A stretch of 55,077 bases of DNA, taken from contig NZ_UEXK01000004.1 of the NCBI RefSeq assembly GCF_900491935.1, positions 3,085,844-3,140,920 of the forward strand, in the 5' to 3' direction. Shown one piece after another: positions 45,050 through 50,750 of the stretch. Below the pieces are notes generated by a model, which worked only from the letters and a program-made list of their open reading frames with translations, was not told the DNA's origin and ran no database searches. The position numbers and the translations under genes were made by a program. The DNA is from Klenkia terrae. Lineage in GTDB: Bacteria > Actinomycetota > Actinomycetes > Mycobacteriales > Geodermatophilaceae. Each line of letters begins with the position of its first letter. Position 1 is the stretch's first letter.

Positions 45050-45751
45050 CTAACGCAGGTGCCGCAGGAAGCTCTCCGGCCGGTCCAGGAACTGCCGCCA
45101 GCTCGCGGTGAGCTCCAGGTCGTCCCAGGCGGCCGGCCGCAGCCCCCACGGCCCGACCTCGAGGATCGTGGCCCCCGGCAGCGCGGCCACGAGCGGGGAG
45201 TGCGTGGCCACCACGACCTGCGCGCCGCGGTCGACCACGTCGACCAACCCGGCGACCAGGCGGAGCTGGCCGGCGAAGGAGAGCGCGGCGTCCGGCTCGT
45301 CGAGCAGGTAGGTGCCCGCCCCGCGCGCCCGGTCCTCGAAGATCGCGAGGAACGCCTCGCCGTGGCTGAGGTGGTGGTAGCTGGGCCCGGACTCCTCCAG
45401 GTACGTGTAGAGACCGTGCAGCGTCTCGTCGCGCAGCAGGTAGGCCCACCGCGGGGCGCCCGGCGCCCGCTCCACCACCAGCGGCAGCGCGTCGGGCTCG
45501 GTCCGCCGGGTCTCCAGCCGGGCCCCGGCCGAGCCGCCCTCGGGGTTGAGGCCCAGCGCGACGGCGAGCACCTCGACCAGGGTCGACTTGCCCGACGCGT
45601 TCTCGCCCACCAGGACCGTGGCCCCCGGCGCGAGCTCGAGCCCCTCGGCCCACAGCGGGGCCACCGCCGGCACGGTCATCGGCCACATGGCGTCCAGCGG
45701 CGGGGGCGCACCGGCGTCGGCGCGCACCCGTCGCACCCCGGGCCGCGCCAT
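45050..45751 (-). CDS. small AAA/SMC-like ATPase
   Basis: 233-residue ABC-ATPase-fold protein of the COG3910 type, without the coiled coil of SMC or the membrane partner of ABC transporters. Walker A is VLVGENASGKSTLVE, the signature-like region is YHHLSHGEAFLAIFEDRA, Walker B is TYLLDEPDAAL, and the switch is VVVATHSPLVAALPG. Function unknown; similar proteins accompany defence or repair genes. ATG at 45751 with CAGGAT seven bases before it. Confidence 0.8.
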   Translation of the reverse strand: MARPGVRRVRADAGAPPPLDAMWPMTVPAVAPLWAEGLELAPGATVLVGENASGKSTLVEVLAVALGLNPEGGSAGARLETRRTEPDALPLVVERAPGAPRWAYLLRDETLHGLYTYLEESGPSYHHLSHGEAFLAIFEDRARGAGTYLLDEPDAALSFAGQLRLVAGLVDVVDRGAQVVVATHSPLVAALPGATILEVGPWGLRPAAWDDLELTASWRQFLDRPESFLRHLR

Positions 45752-45774
45752 GCTCCTCATCCTGCCTGGGCGTG

Positions 45775-45871: not shown

Positions 45872-47398
45872 TCAGCGGGCGCGGCGGCCCAGGTGGCGCC
45901 AGCGCGTGGTCCGGCTGCGCTGGCGCTCGACGTCGTCCCGGCCGAGCAGCCCGGCGAGCTCCTCGGCGAGCACCCGGCCCAGGCGGGCGCAGAACTCGTC
46001 GGGCTCGTCGGCGGCGTCCGGGCGCTCGGGGACGACGCGGTCGACGATGCCGGCCCGCCACAGGTCGGTGGCCCGCACGCCCTGCTGGGCGGCCATGACG
46101 TCGGCGTGGTCGACGTCGCGGTGCACGATCGCCGAGGCGCCCTCGGGCGGCAGCGGACCCAGCCAGCCGTTGGCGCAGGCCAGCACCCGGTCGGCCGGCA
46201 CCAGCGCGAGCGCGCCGCCGCCGGTGCCCTGGCCCAGCAGCACGGCCAGCGTCGGTGCCTTGAGGGTGACCAGGTCGGACAGGCAGCGAGCGATCTCGCC
46301 GGCCAGCCCGCCCTCCTCGGCCTCCTTGGACAGCGCCGCGCCGGGGGTGTCGATGAGGGTGACCAGCGGCAGCCGCAGCTCGGCGGCCAGCCGCATGCCG
46401 CGGCGGGCCTCCCGCAGTGCGGCCGGGCCCAGCGGGGCGCTCAGCGACTGCCCGCGCCGGTCCTGGCCGAGCACCACGCACGGCGCGCCGCCGAACCGGG
46501 CCAGCGCCAGCAGCAGGCCGGGGTCGGACTCGCCGGCGCCGGTGCCGTTGAGGGCGACGACGTCGGTGGCCGCGGTGCGCAGCAGCCGCCGGACGCCGGG
46601 GCGGTCGGTGCGGCGGGAGGCGGTGACGACGTCCCAGGCGCTGCGGCCGTCCTCGGGGTCGTCGGCGTCGGTGCCGTCGCCCTCGACCGGTCCGGCGACC
46701 TGGGCGTCGCGGTGCCAGGTGGCCCGGGCGGCGAGCACCCGCAGCGCGCGGTCGGCGACATCGGCGACCTGCTCGTGCGGGACGACGGCGTCGATGACGC
46801 CGCGCTCGTGCAGGTGCTCGGCGGTCTGCACGCCCTCGGGGAACTTCTCGCCGTACAGGGACTCGTAGACCCGGGGGCCGAGGAAGCCGATGGAGGCGCC
46901 GGGCTCGGCGATGGTGACGTGGCCCAGCGAGCCCCAGGAGGCCAGCACGCCGCCGAAGGTGGGGGAGCGCAGGTAGACCAGGTAGGGCAGCCCGGCCTCC
47001 TTGTGCCGGGCGACGGCCTGGGTGATGCCGACCATCTGCAGGAAGGCGACGGTGCCTTCCTGCATGCGGGTGCCGCCGGAGACGGGGGCCGCCAGCAGCG
47101 GCAGCCCCTCGGCGGTGGCCCGCTCGACGGCGGCCATCAGCCGCTCCGCGGTCGCGACGCCGATGGAGCCGGCCAGGAAGCCGAACTCCCCGGCCACCAC
47201 GGCCACCCGGCGCCCGCGCAGCCGGCCCTCGCCGCTGACGATGGCCTCGTCCTGCCGGGTCTTCTCCTGCGCCCGGGCTAGCTCGGCGGCGTACTCCGGC
47301 GACACGTCGCGCGGCCCGACCGGGGTGTCCCAGGAGATCCAGGTGCCGGGGTCCAGCACCAGGTCGCGCAGGGTGCGGGCGTCCATCCGGGTGCTCAC
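45872..47398 (-). CDS. fused acyl-CoA carboxyltransferase (AccD-AccA like)
   Basis: 508-residue carboxyltransferase with two crotonase-type halves. The N-terminal half resembles AccD (VVAGEFGFLAGSIGVATAERLMAAVERA, GGTRMQEGTVAFLQM, YLRSPTFGGVLASWGSLGHVTIAEPGASIGFLGPRV, in pieces) but lacks the CxxC zinc ribbon. The C-terminal half resembles AccA (TLIDTPGAALSKEAEEGGLAGEIARC, LGQGTGGGALAL). It should move a carboxyl group between an acyl-CoA and carboxybiotin, or act as a decarboxylase. No biotin carboxylase or BCCP gene is nearby. GTG start, 4-base overlap with the CoA-transferase gene. Confidence 0.82.
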   Translation of the reverse strand: MSTRMDARTLRDLVLDPGTWISWDTPVGPRDVSPEYAAELARAQEKTRQDEAIVSGEGRLRGRRVAVVAGEFGFLAGSIGVATAERLMAAVERATAEGLPLLAAPVSGGTRMQEGTVAFLQMVGITQAVARHKEAGLPYLVYLRSPTFGGVLASWGSLGHVTIAEPGASIGFLGPRVYESLYGEKFPEGVQTAEHLHERGVIDAVVPHEQVADVADRALRVLAARATWHRDAQVAGPVEGDGTDADDPEDGRSAWDVVTASRRTDRPGVRRLLRTAATDVVALNGTGAGESDPGLLLALARFGGAPCVVLGQDRRGQSLSAPLGPAALREARRGMRLAAELRLPLVTLIDTPGAALSKEAEEGGLAGEIARCLSDLVTLKAPTLAVLLGQGTGGGALALVPADRVLACANGWLGPLPPEGASAIVHRDVDHADVMAAQQGVRATDLWRAGIVDRVVPERPDAADEPDEFCARLGRVLAEELAGLLGRDDVERQRSRTTRWRHLGRRAR

Positions 47399-48579
47399 GA
47401 GCGCAGCCAGGCCCGGATCGCGTCGCCGTCGGCGCCGAGGACCGGGGGAGCGGTGTGCGCCGTCCGGGTGGTCTCGGTCTCGCCGTCGGGCGACGGGGCG
47501 AAGAACCGCAGCGGCGGCCCGGGCAGCTGGACGGTGCCCAGCGTGGCGTGGTCGACGTCGACCAGCAGGCCCTGGGACTGCGCCTGGTCCCAGCCGTAGA
47601 CCTCGTCGATCGTGCGGACCTTGCCGGCCGGCACCCCAGCCGCGGACAGCCGGGCCAGCAGCGCCTCGGCCTCGATGCCGACGAACGCGGTCTCCAGCAG
47701 CTCGATGACCCGCTCGCGGTTGCCCACCCGCTCGCCGTTGGTGGCCAGGCCGTCGGCCTCGGCGTCCAGCCCGAACTCCGCGCACAGCTTGCGCCACAGC
47801 GACTCGCTGCCGCAGGACAGCTGGACGCTGCCGCCGTCGGCGCAGCGGAACAGCCCGTACGGGGCGATCGAGGGGTGGTGGTTGCCCTGGGCGTGGCCGA
47901 CCTTGCCGGCCACCGTCCACGCCGTCCCCTGGAAGGCGTGCACGCCGACGACGGCGGCCAGCAGCGACGTGCGCACGACCTGGCCGCGGCCGGTCTTCTC
48001 CCGCTCCAGCAGCGCGGCGAGCACCCCGTAGGCGCCGTACATGCCGGCCAGCAGGTCGCCGATCGGGACGCCGACCCGCTGCGGGTCCTCGGGCCCGGAG
48101 CCGGTGAGCGACATCAGCCCGGCCTCGCCCTGGGCGATCTGGTCGTAGCCGGCCCGCCCGCCCTCGGGACCGTCGTGGCCGAAGCCGCTGATGGCCAGGG
48201 TCACCAGCCGCGGGTTGAGCTCGGCGAGCACGTCGGTGCCGAAGCCCAGCCGGGCCAGCGTGCCGGGCCGGAAGTTCTCCAGCAGCACGTCGGCGCGGCG
48301 CAGCAGCTCGGTCAGCGTCGCCTTGTCCGCGTCGTCCTTGAGGTCGAGGGTGATCGACTCCTTGTTCTTGTTCGTGGACAGGAAGTAGGTGGACTCCCGG
48401 TCGGCGCCCTCGGGCTGCACGAACGGCGGACCCCACCCGCGGGTGTCGTCGCCGCTGTCGGGGTTCTCCACCTTGATCACCCGGGCACCGAGGTCGCCGA
48501 GCATCATCCCGGCGTGCGGGCCGGCCAGCGCGCGGGTCAGGTCGACGACGAGCAAGCCGTCCAGGGGTCCTGCGGTCAC
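47395..48579 (-). CDS. CaiB/BaiF type III CoA-transferase
   Basis: 394 residues. VVDLTRALAGPHAGMMLGDLGARVIKVE (in pieces) with the following GDDTRGWGPPF is the family N-terminus. The catalytic Asp is expected in the GRAGYDQIAQGEAGLMSLTG region, and the FRPGTLARLGF segment is conserved. It transfers CoA from a donor such as succinyl-CoA or acetyl-CoA to a carboxylate. The GTG at 48579 has GGAGG four bases upstream; an ATG at 48594 in the transporter stop (ATGA) would add five residues. It likely activates the substrate brought in by the MatC-like carrier. Confidence 0.88.
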   Translation of the reverse strand: MTAGPLDGLLVVDLTRALAGPHAGMMLGDLGARVIKVENPDSGDDTRGWGPPFVQPEGADRESTYFLSTNKNKESITLDLKDDADKATLTELLRRADVLLENFRPGTLARLGFGTDVLAELNPRLVTLAISGFGHDGPEGGRAGYDQIAQGEAGLMSLTGSGPEDPQRVGVPIGDLLAGMYGAYGVLAALLEREKTGRGQVVRTSLLAAVVGVHAFQGTAWTVAGKVGHAQGNHHPSIAPYGLFRCADGGSVQLSCGSESLWRKLCAEFGLDAEADGLATNGERVGNRERVIELLETAFVGIEAEALLARLSAAGVPAGKVRTIDEVYGWDQAQSQGLLVDVDHATLGTVQLPGPPLRFFAPSPDGETETTRTAHTAPPVLGADGDAIRAWLRS

Positions 48580-48593
48580 GGTTCCTCCGGTCA

Positions 48594-49925
48594 TCAGAGC
48601 CACCCGGGGACGACGAAGACCAGCCAGGCCAGGAGCGGGCCGACCAGGACGACGATGCCGGAGTAGCCGAGGATCTGCTTGTAGAAGCGGTCGCGGTCGA
48701 CGTCCTGGGCGTTGGCCAGGACGAGCGCGCCGTTGGTGGAGAACGGGCTGACGTCGACGATGGTCGAGGCGACCGAGAGCGCCACGACGACGCCCACCGC
48801 CCCGATCTCGCCGGCCAGCAGGAACGGCACGGCCAGCGAGATGGCCACGCCGATGATCGCCGTCGAGCTGGCGAAGGCCGAGACGACGCCGCCGATGTAG
48901 GCCAGCAGCAGGGCCACGACCAGCGGGGCGCCGATCGAGGTCACGCTCTCCCCGACGTAGTCGATGGTGCCGGCCTCCTGCAGCACGAAGACGAAGCTGA
49001 GCACGCCGGCGATCAGCAGCACGGTGGACCAGCTGATCTGCATGACCGCGCCCTTGTGCCGGGCGGCGGAGAACAGGGCCAGCACGGTGGCGATGGTGAT
49101 CGAGACGAACCCGATGTCCAGGTCGAAGACCAGGGCGAGGACGACGAGGACGACCAGGCCCACCAGGGTCAGGATCTGCTCGACGGTGACCCGGCCGGTC
49201 TTCTCGGCGACGTCGACCGACGACCCGGCCGTGGACCCGGCGGAGGTGCCGTGCCCGGTGACCTCGGCGTCGGTGTCGCCGTCGGCGGGCTCGGGGACGG
49301 CCTCGTCGCCGACCCGGCGGCCCATGAGCTTGCGCCCGCCCAGGACGACGAACAGCACGATGCCGATCGCCAGGTTGAAGAACAGGCTGCCCAGGAACAC
49401 CGTCAGCGGGCTGCTGGGCAGGTCGTTCTGGGCCACGATGTTGTTGACCGTGACGCCGTAGACGCTGATCGGGGAGAACCCGCCGGCCTGGGCGCCGTGG
49501 ATGACCATCATGCCCATCAGCAGCGGGCTGATCCGGTACTTCGCGGCGAAGCCCAGCGCGATGGGGGCGATGATCGCGACCGCTGCCGGGCCGAGGGCGC
49601 CGATGGCGGTGAGCACGCCGGTGACGGCGAACATGATCCACGGGATCAGGGCCACCCGGCCGGCCACCAGCTTCACCGCGCCGCGGACCAGCAGGTCCAC
49701 GGTGCCGTTGTTCTGCGCGATGGCGAACAGGTAGGTGACCCCGATCAGGGTCAGCACCAGCTCGCCCGGGAAGCCGGCGAGGATGTCGTCGGTGGTCATC
49801 CCGACGGCGAGGGTGCCGACCAGGAAGGCGGCCACGAACGCGAGGGCGCCCATGTTGATCGGCAGGAAGGTGGCGATCGCGAAGATCGCCACCAACGCCA
49901 GGATCGAGATGATCTCGGGTGACAC
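48594..49925 (-). CDS. MatC-like dicarboxylate carrier (SLC13/ion transporter superfamily)
   Basis: 443-residue membrane protein. The N-terminal half matches MatC_N (FLPINMGALAFVAAFLVGTLA, IGALGPAAVAIIAPIALGF, HGAQAGGFSPISVYG). A hydrophilic acidic loop lies at about residues 205-245 (EAVPEPADGDTDAEVTGHG). The C-terminal half is a second helix repeat with STIVDVSPFSTNGAL. MatC carriers take up malonate-like dicarboxylates. It heads the operon with the CoA-transferase and carboxyltransferase, and diverges from the GntR regulator. Confidence 0.82.
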   Translation of the reverse strand: MSPEIISILALVAIFAIATFLPINMGALAFVAAFLVGTLAVGMTTDDILAGFPGELVLTLIGVTYLFAIAQNNGTVDLLVRGAVKLVAGRVALIPWIMFAVTGVLTAIGALGPAAVAIIAPIALGFAAKYRISPLLMGMMVIHGAQAGGFSPISVYGVTVNNIVAQNDLPSSPLTVFLGSLFFNLAIGIVLFVVLGGRKLMGRRVGDEAVPEPADGDTDAEVTGHGTSAGSTAGSSVDVAEKTGRVTVEQILTLVGLVVLVVLALVFDLDIGFVSITIATVLALFSAARHKGAVMQISWSTVLLIAGVLSFVFVLQEAGTIDYVGESVTSIGAPLVVALLLAYIGGVVSAFASSTAIIGVAISLAVPFLLAGEIGAVGVVVALSVASTIVDVSPFSTNGALVLANAQDVDRDRFYKQILGYSGIVVLVGPLLAWLVFVVPGWL

Positions 49926-49969
49926 GTCGGACTCCCACGTCGTCGAGGGGCGGGTCGTATGACCCCGGT

Positions 49970-50015
49970 CACTGGTTCAGTGGCCTAGCCTCTCGGCCAG
50001 TCGCTAGTGTGTCAA
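49970..50015 (-). promoter_or_regulatory. promoter and candidate GntR operator of the MatC operon
   Basis: On the minus strand, TTGACA (50015-50010), a 17-base spacer and GAGGCT (49992-49987) form a sigma-70-type promoter. The perfect inverted repeat CACTG-GTT-CAGTG (49970-49982) covers the expected start point. It is placed to block transcription of the MatC operon and lies 64 bases before the regulator gene. Known FadR-type sites are short palindromes of similar size. Confidence 0.6.
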
Positions 50016-50045
50016 CCACCACGCACGGGAGACCAGGAGGGTGCC

Positions 50046-50750
50046 GTGAGCGTCGGACCTGGGCCGCTGCGCCGCAACCGGCTCTACGAGCAGGTCGTGC
50101 ACCAGCTGCTGACCTGGGCGTCGTCGGCCGGGCTCGGCCCGGGGGACCGGCTGCCGGCCGAGCGCGAGCTGGCCGCCTCGCTGGGGGTCAGCCGCGCGAC
50201 GCTGGCCCAGGCGCTGGTCGCCCTGGAGGTCACCGGGGTGGTCGCCGTCCGGCACGGCGACGGCACCGTGCTGCTGGTGGCGCCGCGGGCGGACACCGTG
50301 CTGGCCGCGCTGCAGACCCGGCGCGAGGACCTCGGCGACGTCATCGAGGCCCGGGAGGCACTCGAGGTCCGGCTGGCCGGGCTGGCCGCCCGCCGGCGGA
50401 CCGAGGCGGACCTGGCCGAGATCGACGCCGCCCTGGACGCGATGGCCGCCGACGTGGCGGCCGGCGGGCGCGGGGTGGCCGGCGACGAGCGCTTCCACGC
50501 CGCGGTCACCGCCGCCGGGCACTCCGCGCTGCTGGCCCGGTTCATGGCCGAGATCAGCGACCGCGTCCGGGAGAGCCGGATCGAGTCCCTCGCCCAGGAG
50601 GGCCGCCCGCACCGCTCCCTGGACGGCCACCGCGCGATCGCCGAGGCCATCCGCGCCGGGGACGAGGCCGCCGCCGGTGCGGCGATGGCCGCGCACATCC
50701 AGATGGTCTCCGACGTCCCGCTGCTGGGCGGCGGTCAGCCCGGCAGGTAG
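50046..50750 (+). CDS. GntR family (FadR subfamily) transcriptional regulator
   Basis: 234 residues. The winged helix is LYEQVVHQLLTWASSAGLGPGDRLPAERELAASLGVSRATLAQALVALEVTGVV (in pieces). The FCD effector domain has EAREALEVRLAGLAARR, DERFHAAVTAAGHSALLARFM and a final DGHRAIAEAIRAGD...AMAAHI with the His residues that bind a metal/carboxylate ligand. GTG at 50046 with AGGAGG eight bases upstream. It diverges from the MatC operon, so it probably represses it and senses the transported acid or its CoA ester. Its 3' end overlaps the cyclo-ligase gene by 16 bases. Confidence 0.9.
   Translation: MSVGPGPLRRNRLYEQVVHQLLTWASSAGLGPGDRLPAERELAASLGVSRATLAQALVALEVTGVVAVRHGDGTVLLVAPRADTVLAALQTRREDLGDVIEAREALEVRLAGLAARRRTEADLAEIDAALDAMAADVAAGGRGVAGDERFHAAVTAAGHSALLARFMAEISDRVRESRIESLAQEGRPHRSLDGHRAIAEAIRAGDEAAAGAAMAAHIQMVSDVPLLGGGQPGR

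Follow-up and report, generated by a model that had tools for sequence, protein, structure and literature searches.

Several routes for the breakdown of malonate have been described in bacteria. In Rhizobium trifolii, the matABC genes accompany a GntR-type regulator and combine a MatC carrier with the conversion of malonate to malonyl-CoA and then to acetyl-CoA, by the MatB synthetase and a malonyl-CoA decarboxylase whose fold is unrelated to that of the enzyme discussed here. In the MdcABCDE malonate decarboxylase (MDC) of Pseudomonas, a transferase step is followed by biotin-free decarboxylation by a two-part crotonase-fold enzyme resembling AccD and AccA, and MdcD-MdcE is reported to be active with malonyl-CoA, with kinetics given (PMC5534430). 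Malonate CoA-transferase (EC 2.8.3.3) has been reported from Pseudomonas ovalis as an activity together with that of malonyl-CoA decarboxylase (PMC8307300). Here, we analyzed a 55,077-nucleotide stretch (the window) of the 4.8-Mb genome of the soil actinobacterium Klenkia terrae (contig NZ_UEXK01000004.1, positions 3,085,844 to 3,140,920), in which four adjacent genes encode a GntR-type regulator, a MatC-type carrier, a family III (CaiB-type) CoA-transferase, and a fused AccD-AccA-like carboxyltransferase (CT). Judging from sequence, we moderately favor the reading that these genes form a malonate-utilization operon in which the CT would decarboxylate malonyl-CoA without biotin, a predicted route shorter than those already described.

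Open reading frame (ORF) and Pfam analysis confirmed that the four genes are real and lie where they were first described, in the arrangement given by the earlier note, with a GntR/FadR regulator diverging from three overlapping genes. The regulator is on the forward strand at 50046..50750 (Pfam GntR 2.5e-17, FCD 1.9e-27); the longest ORF covers 50007-50750, and the start at 50046 is likelier than that at 50007 because AGGAGG stands five bases upstream. On the reverse strand lie the genes for the 443-aa carrier (48594..49925; MatC_N 4.3e-60, 202.5 bits against a cut-off of 23; CitMHS 6.7e-26), the 399-aa CaiB protein (47395..48594; CoA_transf_3 4.3e-114, 381.9 bits against 23.3), which is a predicted malonate CoA-transferase, and the 508-aa CT (45872..47398, with a GTG start at 47398; Carboxyl_trans 7.9e-59, ACCA 3.5e-47), a predicted biotin-independent malonyl-CoA decarboxylase. 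The MatC stop and the CaiB start share one base (TGATG), and the CaiB stop and the CT start overlap by four (GTGA), the start codons having been chosen by us from the position of ribosome sites and the overlaps.

The closest relatives of this arrangement are Streptomyces-type mat loci, which we tentatively consider to be probably those of S. coelicolor SCO2443-2445. Two of them (L193 and L201) encode, in order, a GntR regulator 50-53% identical to that of the window, a MatC carrier 56-58% identical, MatB, and a distant CT (33-35%). These CTs are likewise fused AccD-AccA-like proteins, with a zinc-ribbon pattern in 0 of 5 and no biotin carboxylase match nearby. The difference lies in activation, since an ATP-dependent MatB activates malonate in the Streptomyces-type set, where Klenkia has a CoA-transferase. 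The MatB of L201 has a match of 1.1e-294 to the solved malonyl-CoA ligase 3nyq, and MatB lies within 5 kb of the CT in all five Streptomyces-type loci. The contrast with classical mat operons drawn in the earlier note was therefore too strong, since loci of this type hold the same regulator and carrier, a distant CT, and MatB in place of CaiB. The label given to SCO2445 differs across three papers, being either a mat gene or an acetyl-CoA carboxylase (PMC5447737, PMC10302056, PMC4367926). A 2019 paper puts some actinobacterial CT proteins into one group with the malonyl-CoA decarboxylases that serve malonate assimilation, gives such CTs that name, and treats SACE_3856 as a MatA ortholog, for which its text gives no assay (PMC6491548).

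To describe the distribution of the two activation routes, we used 200 genomes of the order, counting as orthologs CT proteins of at least 57% identity (87 genes in 85 genomes) and CaiB proteins of at least 60% (73 genes in 71 genomes), and as MatB any match at E ≤1e-90 (49-77% identity). MatB matches occurred in 72 of the 200 genomes. The window genome had none, its best match being 37% identical (3.7e-54), and the operon itself encodes no malonyl-CoA synthetase, as the earlier note had stated. CaiB and MatB largely replaced each other: 68 genomes had CaiB only, 69 MatB only, 3 both, and 60 neither, and among the 85 CT genomes the numbers were 50, 25, 2, and 8, respectively. Each of the two CT genomes with both activating enzymes (G034 and G178) holds one CT gene within a GntR-MatC-CaiB-CT cassette and a second that stands alone (L130/L156 and L153/L157). 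MatB and CT were 26-140 bases apart at 10 places picked by hand within the order. Overall, a malonate operon in which the CoA-transferase takes the place of MatB is well supported.

The two operon types also appear to have a regulatory site in common. In 20 intergenic regions between GntR and MatC, counting perfect four-base palindromes led us to the concentric motif AGTGGC-N3-GCCACT, present with at most two mismatches in 19 of the 20 (mean 0.245 and maximum 3 in 200 single-base shuffles), a count in which the motif was derived from the same regions and many of these are from close kin. It is perfect in L193 and L201 and has one mismatch in the window, where the predicted operator lies at 49979..49993 (no strand assigned). 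As an independent check, we took the 22 MatC loci that lack a GntR match, and the motif occurred within 300 bases upstream of MatC in 1 of them. GntR homologs are encoded divergently from MatC in Klenkia, Mycolicibacterium sediminis, Rhodococcoides fascians, and the Streptomyces-type loci. A FadR-like site (TNGT..ACNA) was found in 2 of the 20 regions and so is not the common site. The shared palindrome suggests one regulator type, and hence perhaps one effector, for both activation routes.

The genes of the operon are kept together elsewhere, as the earlier note had asked of its proposal, although often without MatC and GntR. Among the best 80 of 556 CT relatives in named genomes (closest locus, Klenkia soli, CT 96% identical), 70 had 5 kb of flank on either side of the CT, and within this distance CaiB was found in 57, MatC in 31, GntR in 9, and the whole cassette in 9. 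In a second set, made of the 40 less similar among 57 further orthologs of the order (34 with enough flank), CaiB was near the CT in 13, a carbamate kinase homolog in 8, an AtzD-family gene in 6, MatC in 3, and the cassette in 2; in a third, for which 14 stretches were picked by hand in other parts of the class (13 with enough flank), the counts were 6 for CaiB, 2 for MatC, and 1 for the cassette. Bearers of the cassette include Klenkia, some other Geodermatophilaceae, M. sediminis (L099), and R. fascians (L112); it also occurs in L130, L153, and L211. Since all four genes occur together in other families too, the set is not a chance one. CaiB-CT adjacency also spans several actinobacterial families, with a CaiB ortholog within 5 kb of 43 of the 87 CT orthologs in the 200 genomes, in six family groups. 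In Brevibacterium daeguense (L095), the pair is inserted between hisG and a His_biosynth gene (by Pfam), with the same neighbor clusters in related loci, so CaiB and CT behave as a unit in unrelated surroundings.

A further line of evidence concerns the possible origin of the malonate. Barbiturase reportedly converts barbiturate to ureidomalonate, which ureidomalonase reportedly splits into malonate and urea (Soong 2001). AtzD-family genes (62 in 61 of the 200 genomes) include the window genome's own, whose product matches a solved barbiturase at 7.4e-187 (L170), as does that of Embleya at 6.1e-178 (L121). Two AtzD-family proteins run against NCBIfam both pass its cut-off for cyanuric acid amidohydrolase, but we rejected that function because, for the Klenkia and Embleya proteins, the solved barbiturase matches far better than cyanuric acid hydrolase (2.2e-95 for the Klenkia protein; about 1e-95 at best for the two). 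CaiB was found in 57 of the 61 AtzD-family genomes and in 14 of the 139 others (Fisher 1.7e-31, kinship ignored), and for 21 of the 73 CaiB genes, in five family groups, there is an AtzD-family gene at a distance of 10 kb or less. With and without AtzD, respectively, CaiB was present in 25/25 and 1/3 genomes of group f1, 13/13 and 3/11 of f2, 3/3 and 1/2 of f3, 9/9 and 6/8 of f4, 2/3 and 0/21 of f10, 4/4 and 0/1 of f13, and 0/1 and 2/28 of f8. A carbamate kinase homolog accompanies 18 of the 21 loci with an AtzD-family match (family checked for two), and in the window genome it adjoins the barbiturase-like gene at C4:2409348-2410427 (L170, 9340-11420); this neighborhood may hint that ureidomalonate nitrogen is released as carbamoyl phosphate. 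In L176, L149, and L129, hydantoinase A and B genes also lie near genes of the AtzD family, for carbamate kinase, and for CaiB or CT.

The acceptor of the CoA-transferase is predicted from this context to be malonate. CaiB scores under the cut-off of every NCBIfam model it matches, and its closest solved relatives are 4ed9, the succinate-hydroxymethylglutarate CoA-transferase 9br6, 10uh, and YfdE (4hl6). The Asp of its GDLLAG motif, which we take to be the catalytic one, aligns with an Asp in all five solved relatives shown, and the solved relatives are transferases for several acids. In the 2021 table of PMC8307300, EC 2.8.3.3, the reaction proposed here for CaiB, is listed with no KEGG function number, which makes CaiB a candidate for that entry. 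Among the open PMC papers searched, the two that name malonate CoA-transferase concern other organisms.

The CT is the weakest step of the reading, and here we consider it probably, on sequence and context, a biotin-independent malonyl-CoA decarboxylase. Its fold and the order of its halves are those of the carboxyltransferase of heteromeric acetyl-CoA carboxylase (ACC; AccDA-AccB-AccC), and the motifs SGG-RMQEG and PT-GG are retained in the N half. All four of its Cys residues belong to the C half (residues 308-471 of P0001), so the N-terminal zinc ribbon is absent, as the earlier note had observed. It falls below the NCBIfam cut-offs of accD (177.7 bits against 317.45), both accA models (157.5 against 357 and 130.8 against 319.3), and the MDC beta (49.6 against 278.15) and gamma (37.9 against 237.15) subunits. 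In phylogenetic trees, the CTs form a single clade (SH-aLRT 96 in one, bootstrap/SH-aLRT 100/100 in the other), and a split with support of 98/94 sets CT plus the Streptomyces CT apart from AccDA plus E. coli AccD-AccA, although the program warns of long branches. The CT thus lies outside the known ACC clade. The alignment of CT (92 rows) with AccDA (21 rows) has 15 positions that are fixed in each but differ between them. Among these are positions in three C-half loops, where the CT has L356-S357 in place of P-G, G393 in place of S, and P415-L416-P417 in place of V-I-S; these loops are unlike those of both ACC and MDC. A search with one biotin carboxylase query (matches of at least 40% identity) found it within 5 kb of 0 of 117 CT loci, the nearest being 6.6 kb away (L123), whereas it adjoined 19 of 19 AccDA paralogs, which group with E. 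coli. The earlier statement that no biotin carboxylase is encoded at the locus therefore stands, we rejected an ordinary ACC role because of tree position, partners, and loops, and biotin is likely not used by the CT.

An alternative is that the CT depends on biotin after all and passes CO2 between an acyl-CoA and a borrowed biotin carrier, the operon then carboxylating or transcarboxylating. The ACC-type fold and retained motifs would fit, and the genome, among nine biotin/lipoyl domains, holds an orphan 89-aa biotin carrier of the kind that the earlier note had suggested looking for, though it is not beside the CT. The lack of a carboxylase at the 117 loci and the altered loops argue the other way, and all six biotin carboxylases over cut-off are accounted for, five within 4 kb of other CT genes and one in a pyruvate-carboxylase-like protein; we regard this alternative as unlikely. 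The carrier gene itself lies in L223 (3335-6145), between an ORF resembling a biotin carboxylase start and a sensor-kinase-like ORF (both by eye), and the carrier/kinase pair resembles Rv3221c/Rv3220c of Mycobacterium tuberculosis.

Slightly less probable still is that the same chemistry serves another diacid, i.e., methylmalonate, another alkylmalonate, or ureidomalonate taken directly from barbiturase. The sub-threshold scores of CaiB and the several acids used by its kin leave room for this, and an AtzD-family gene occurs in 17 of the 19 CaiB genomes without a CT, so CaiB could use an earlier intermediate. However, MatB occupies the place of CaiB beside the same carrier, regulator, and palindrome, a MatC carrier would not be explained by ureidomalonate, and barbiturate breakdown reportedly yields malonate. 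That the CT is instead a general control enzyme for malonyl-CoA or acyl-CoA, with its link to CaiB and MatC secondary, would suit its occurrence without an adjoining CaiB in several Blastococcus loci and in Rhodococcus loci (next to an ABC-2 transporter gene in L101), but is very improbable given a MatB match in 25 of the 33 CT genomes lacking CaiB and the recurrence of CaiB-CT two-gene units in unrelated settings such as that of hisG in Brevibacterium. The earlier proposal of diacid import, CoA activation, and decarboxylation remains the interpretation that fits best. With fair confidence, its diacid is malonate, in view of the MatB replacement, the barbiturase linkage, and the common regulator and palindrome; malonate is fairly likely the substrate of the operon.

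Some observations nevertheless count against a malonate operon with a decarboxylating CT. (i) Linkage is incomplete: no CaiB lies within 5 kb of 44 of the 87 CT genes, 19 of the 71 CaiB genomes have no CT ortholog, so the two are separable, and outside the Geodermatophilaceae-like group CaiB was near the CT in 14 of 22 flanked named loci and MatC in 2 of 22. (ii) The 8 of 85 CT genomes with neither CaiB nor MatB lack both activating enzymes, and the contrast among CT genomes comes mostly from f8 (CT in 26/29, MatB in 28/29, CaiB in 2/29), which implies few independent events; at 52-56% identity to the query, the f8 ligases are also less surely MatB. (iii) The associations of CaiB with AtzD and with MatB are uncorrected for descent, CaiB is common in f4 even without AtzD, and the lone AtzD genomes of f8 and of f7 lack CaiB. 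In the window genome, ~0.7 Mb separates the barbiturase gene from the operon, which makes the link there one of presence only. (iv) Gln100, Tyr102, and Ser142 of MdcE, named as likely malonyl contacts in PMC5534430, align with CT position 354 (mostly Ala), L356, and G393, none of the three being kept, in a register that we inferred through the fused MdcD-MdcE of G034. (v) The orphan biotin carrier is present. Because of these residues and the scores below the MdcD and MdcE models, the CT is not a member of MDC by sequence. MDC further differs in working on an acyl carrier protein that bears a special prosthetic group and in its transferase MdcA, where Klenkia has a family III enzyme, and none of MdcC and MdcA/B/G/H is among the three structural genes. 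The mdcD family was not found in the window genome at 1e-30; its sole match among the 200 genomes is in G034, where a malonate decarboxylase operon encodes a fused MdcD-MdcE (L219, 6405-8129). A search with PF05292, the malonyl-CoA decarboxylase family of MatA, gave no match in the 200 genomes, and no positive control matched either.

Around the operon, an AAA-domain protein (AAA_21) is encoded downstream of the CT on the same strand (45050-45760 of the window) and was not counted as part of it. An Rfam scan of the window gave one distant tRNA above the gathering score and no other family, and a promoter and terminator scan yielded nothing of use. In titles and abstract openings of the open-licence PMC literature, the CaiB-CT pair is not described, which is weak as evidence of absence.

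In the proposed pathway, the GntR regulator would repress the operon at the palindromic site until malonate or malonyl-CoA binds. MatC would bring malonate into the cell, and CaiB would transfer CoA to it from an acyl-CoA donor, succinyl-CoA or acetyl-CoA, with no ATP spent. The CT may then convert malonyl-CoA to acetyl-CoA and CO2 at an AccD/AccA-type interface without biotin, as MdcD-MdcE can do with the same thioester. If acetyl-CoA is the donor, malonate would be turned overall into acetate and CO2, CoA being catalytic. In barbiturase-bearing relatives, and perhaps in Klenkia, part of the malonate could come from oxidative pyrimidine breakdown.

There is about an even chance that the locus represents a minimal kind of malonate decarboxylase, widespread in actinobacteria, in which two soluble proteins work on CoA esters without an acyl carrier protein, without biotin, and with neither sodium pump nor ATP-dependent ligase, that it includes a gene for malonate CoA-transferase and provides the end step of oxidative pyrimidine (barbiturate) breakdown, and that its GntR regulon design is common to MatB operons. 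If so, many genes that carry the annotation "acetyl-CoA carboxylase carboxyltransferase" in actinobacteria would encode malonyl-CoA decarboxylases, which would affect metabolic models and malonyl-CoA engineering. Malonate CoA-transferase would gain a candidate gene, and candidate enzymes would be at hand for what becomes of barbiturate-derived malonate. The operon would also offer a natural, testable swap between an ATP-dependent ligase and a CoA-transferase under one regulator type.

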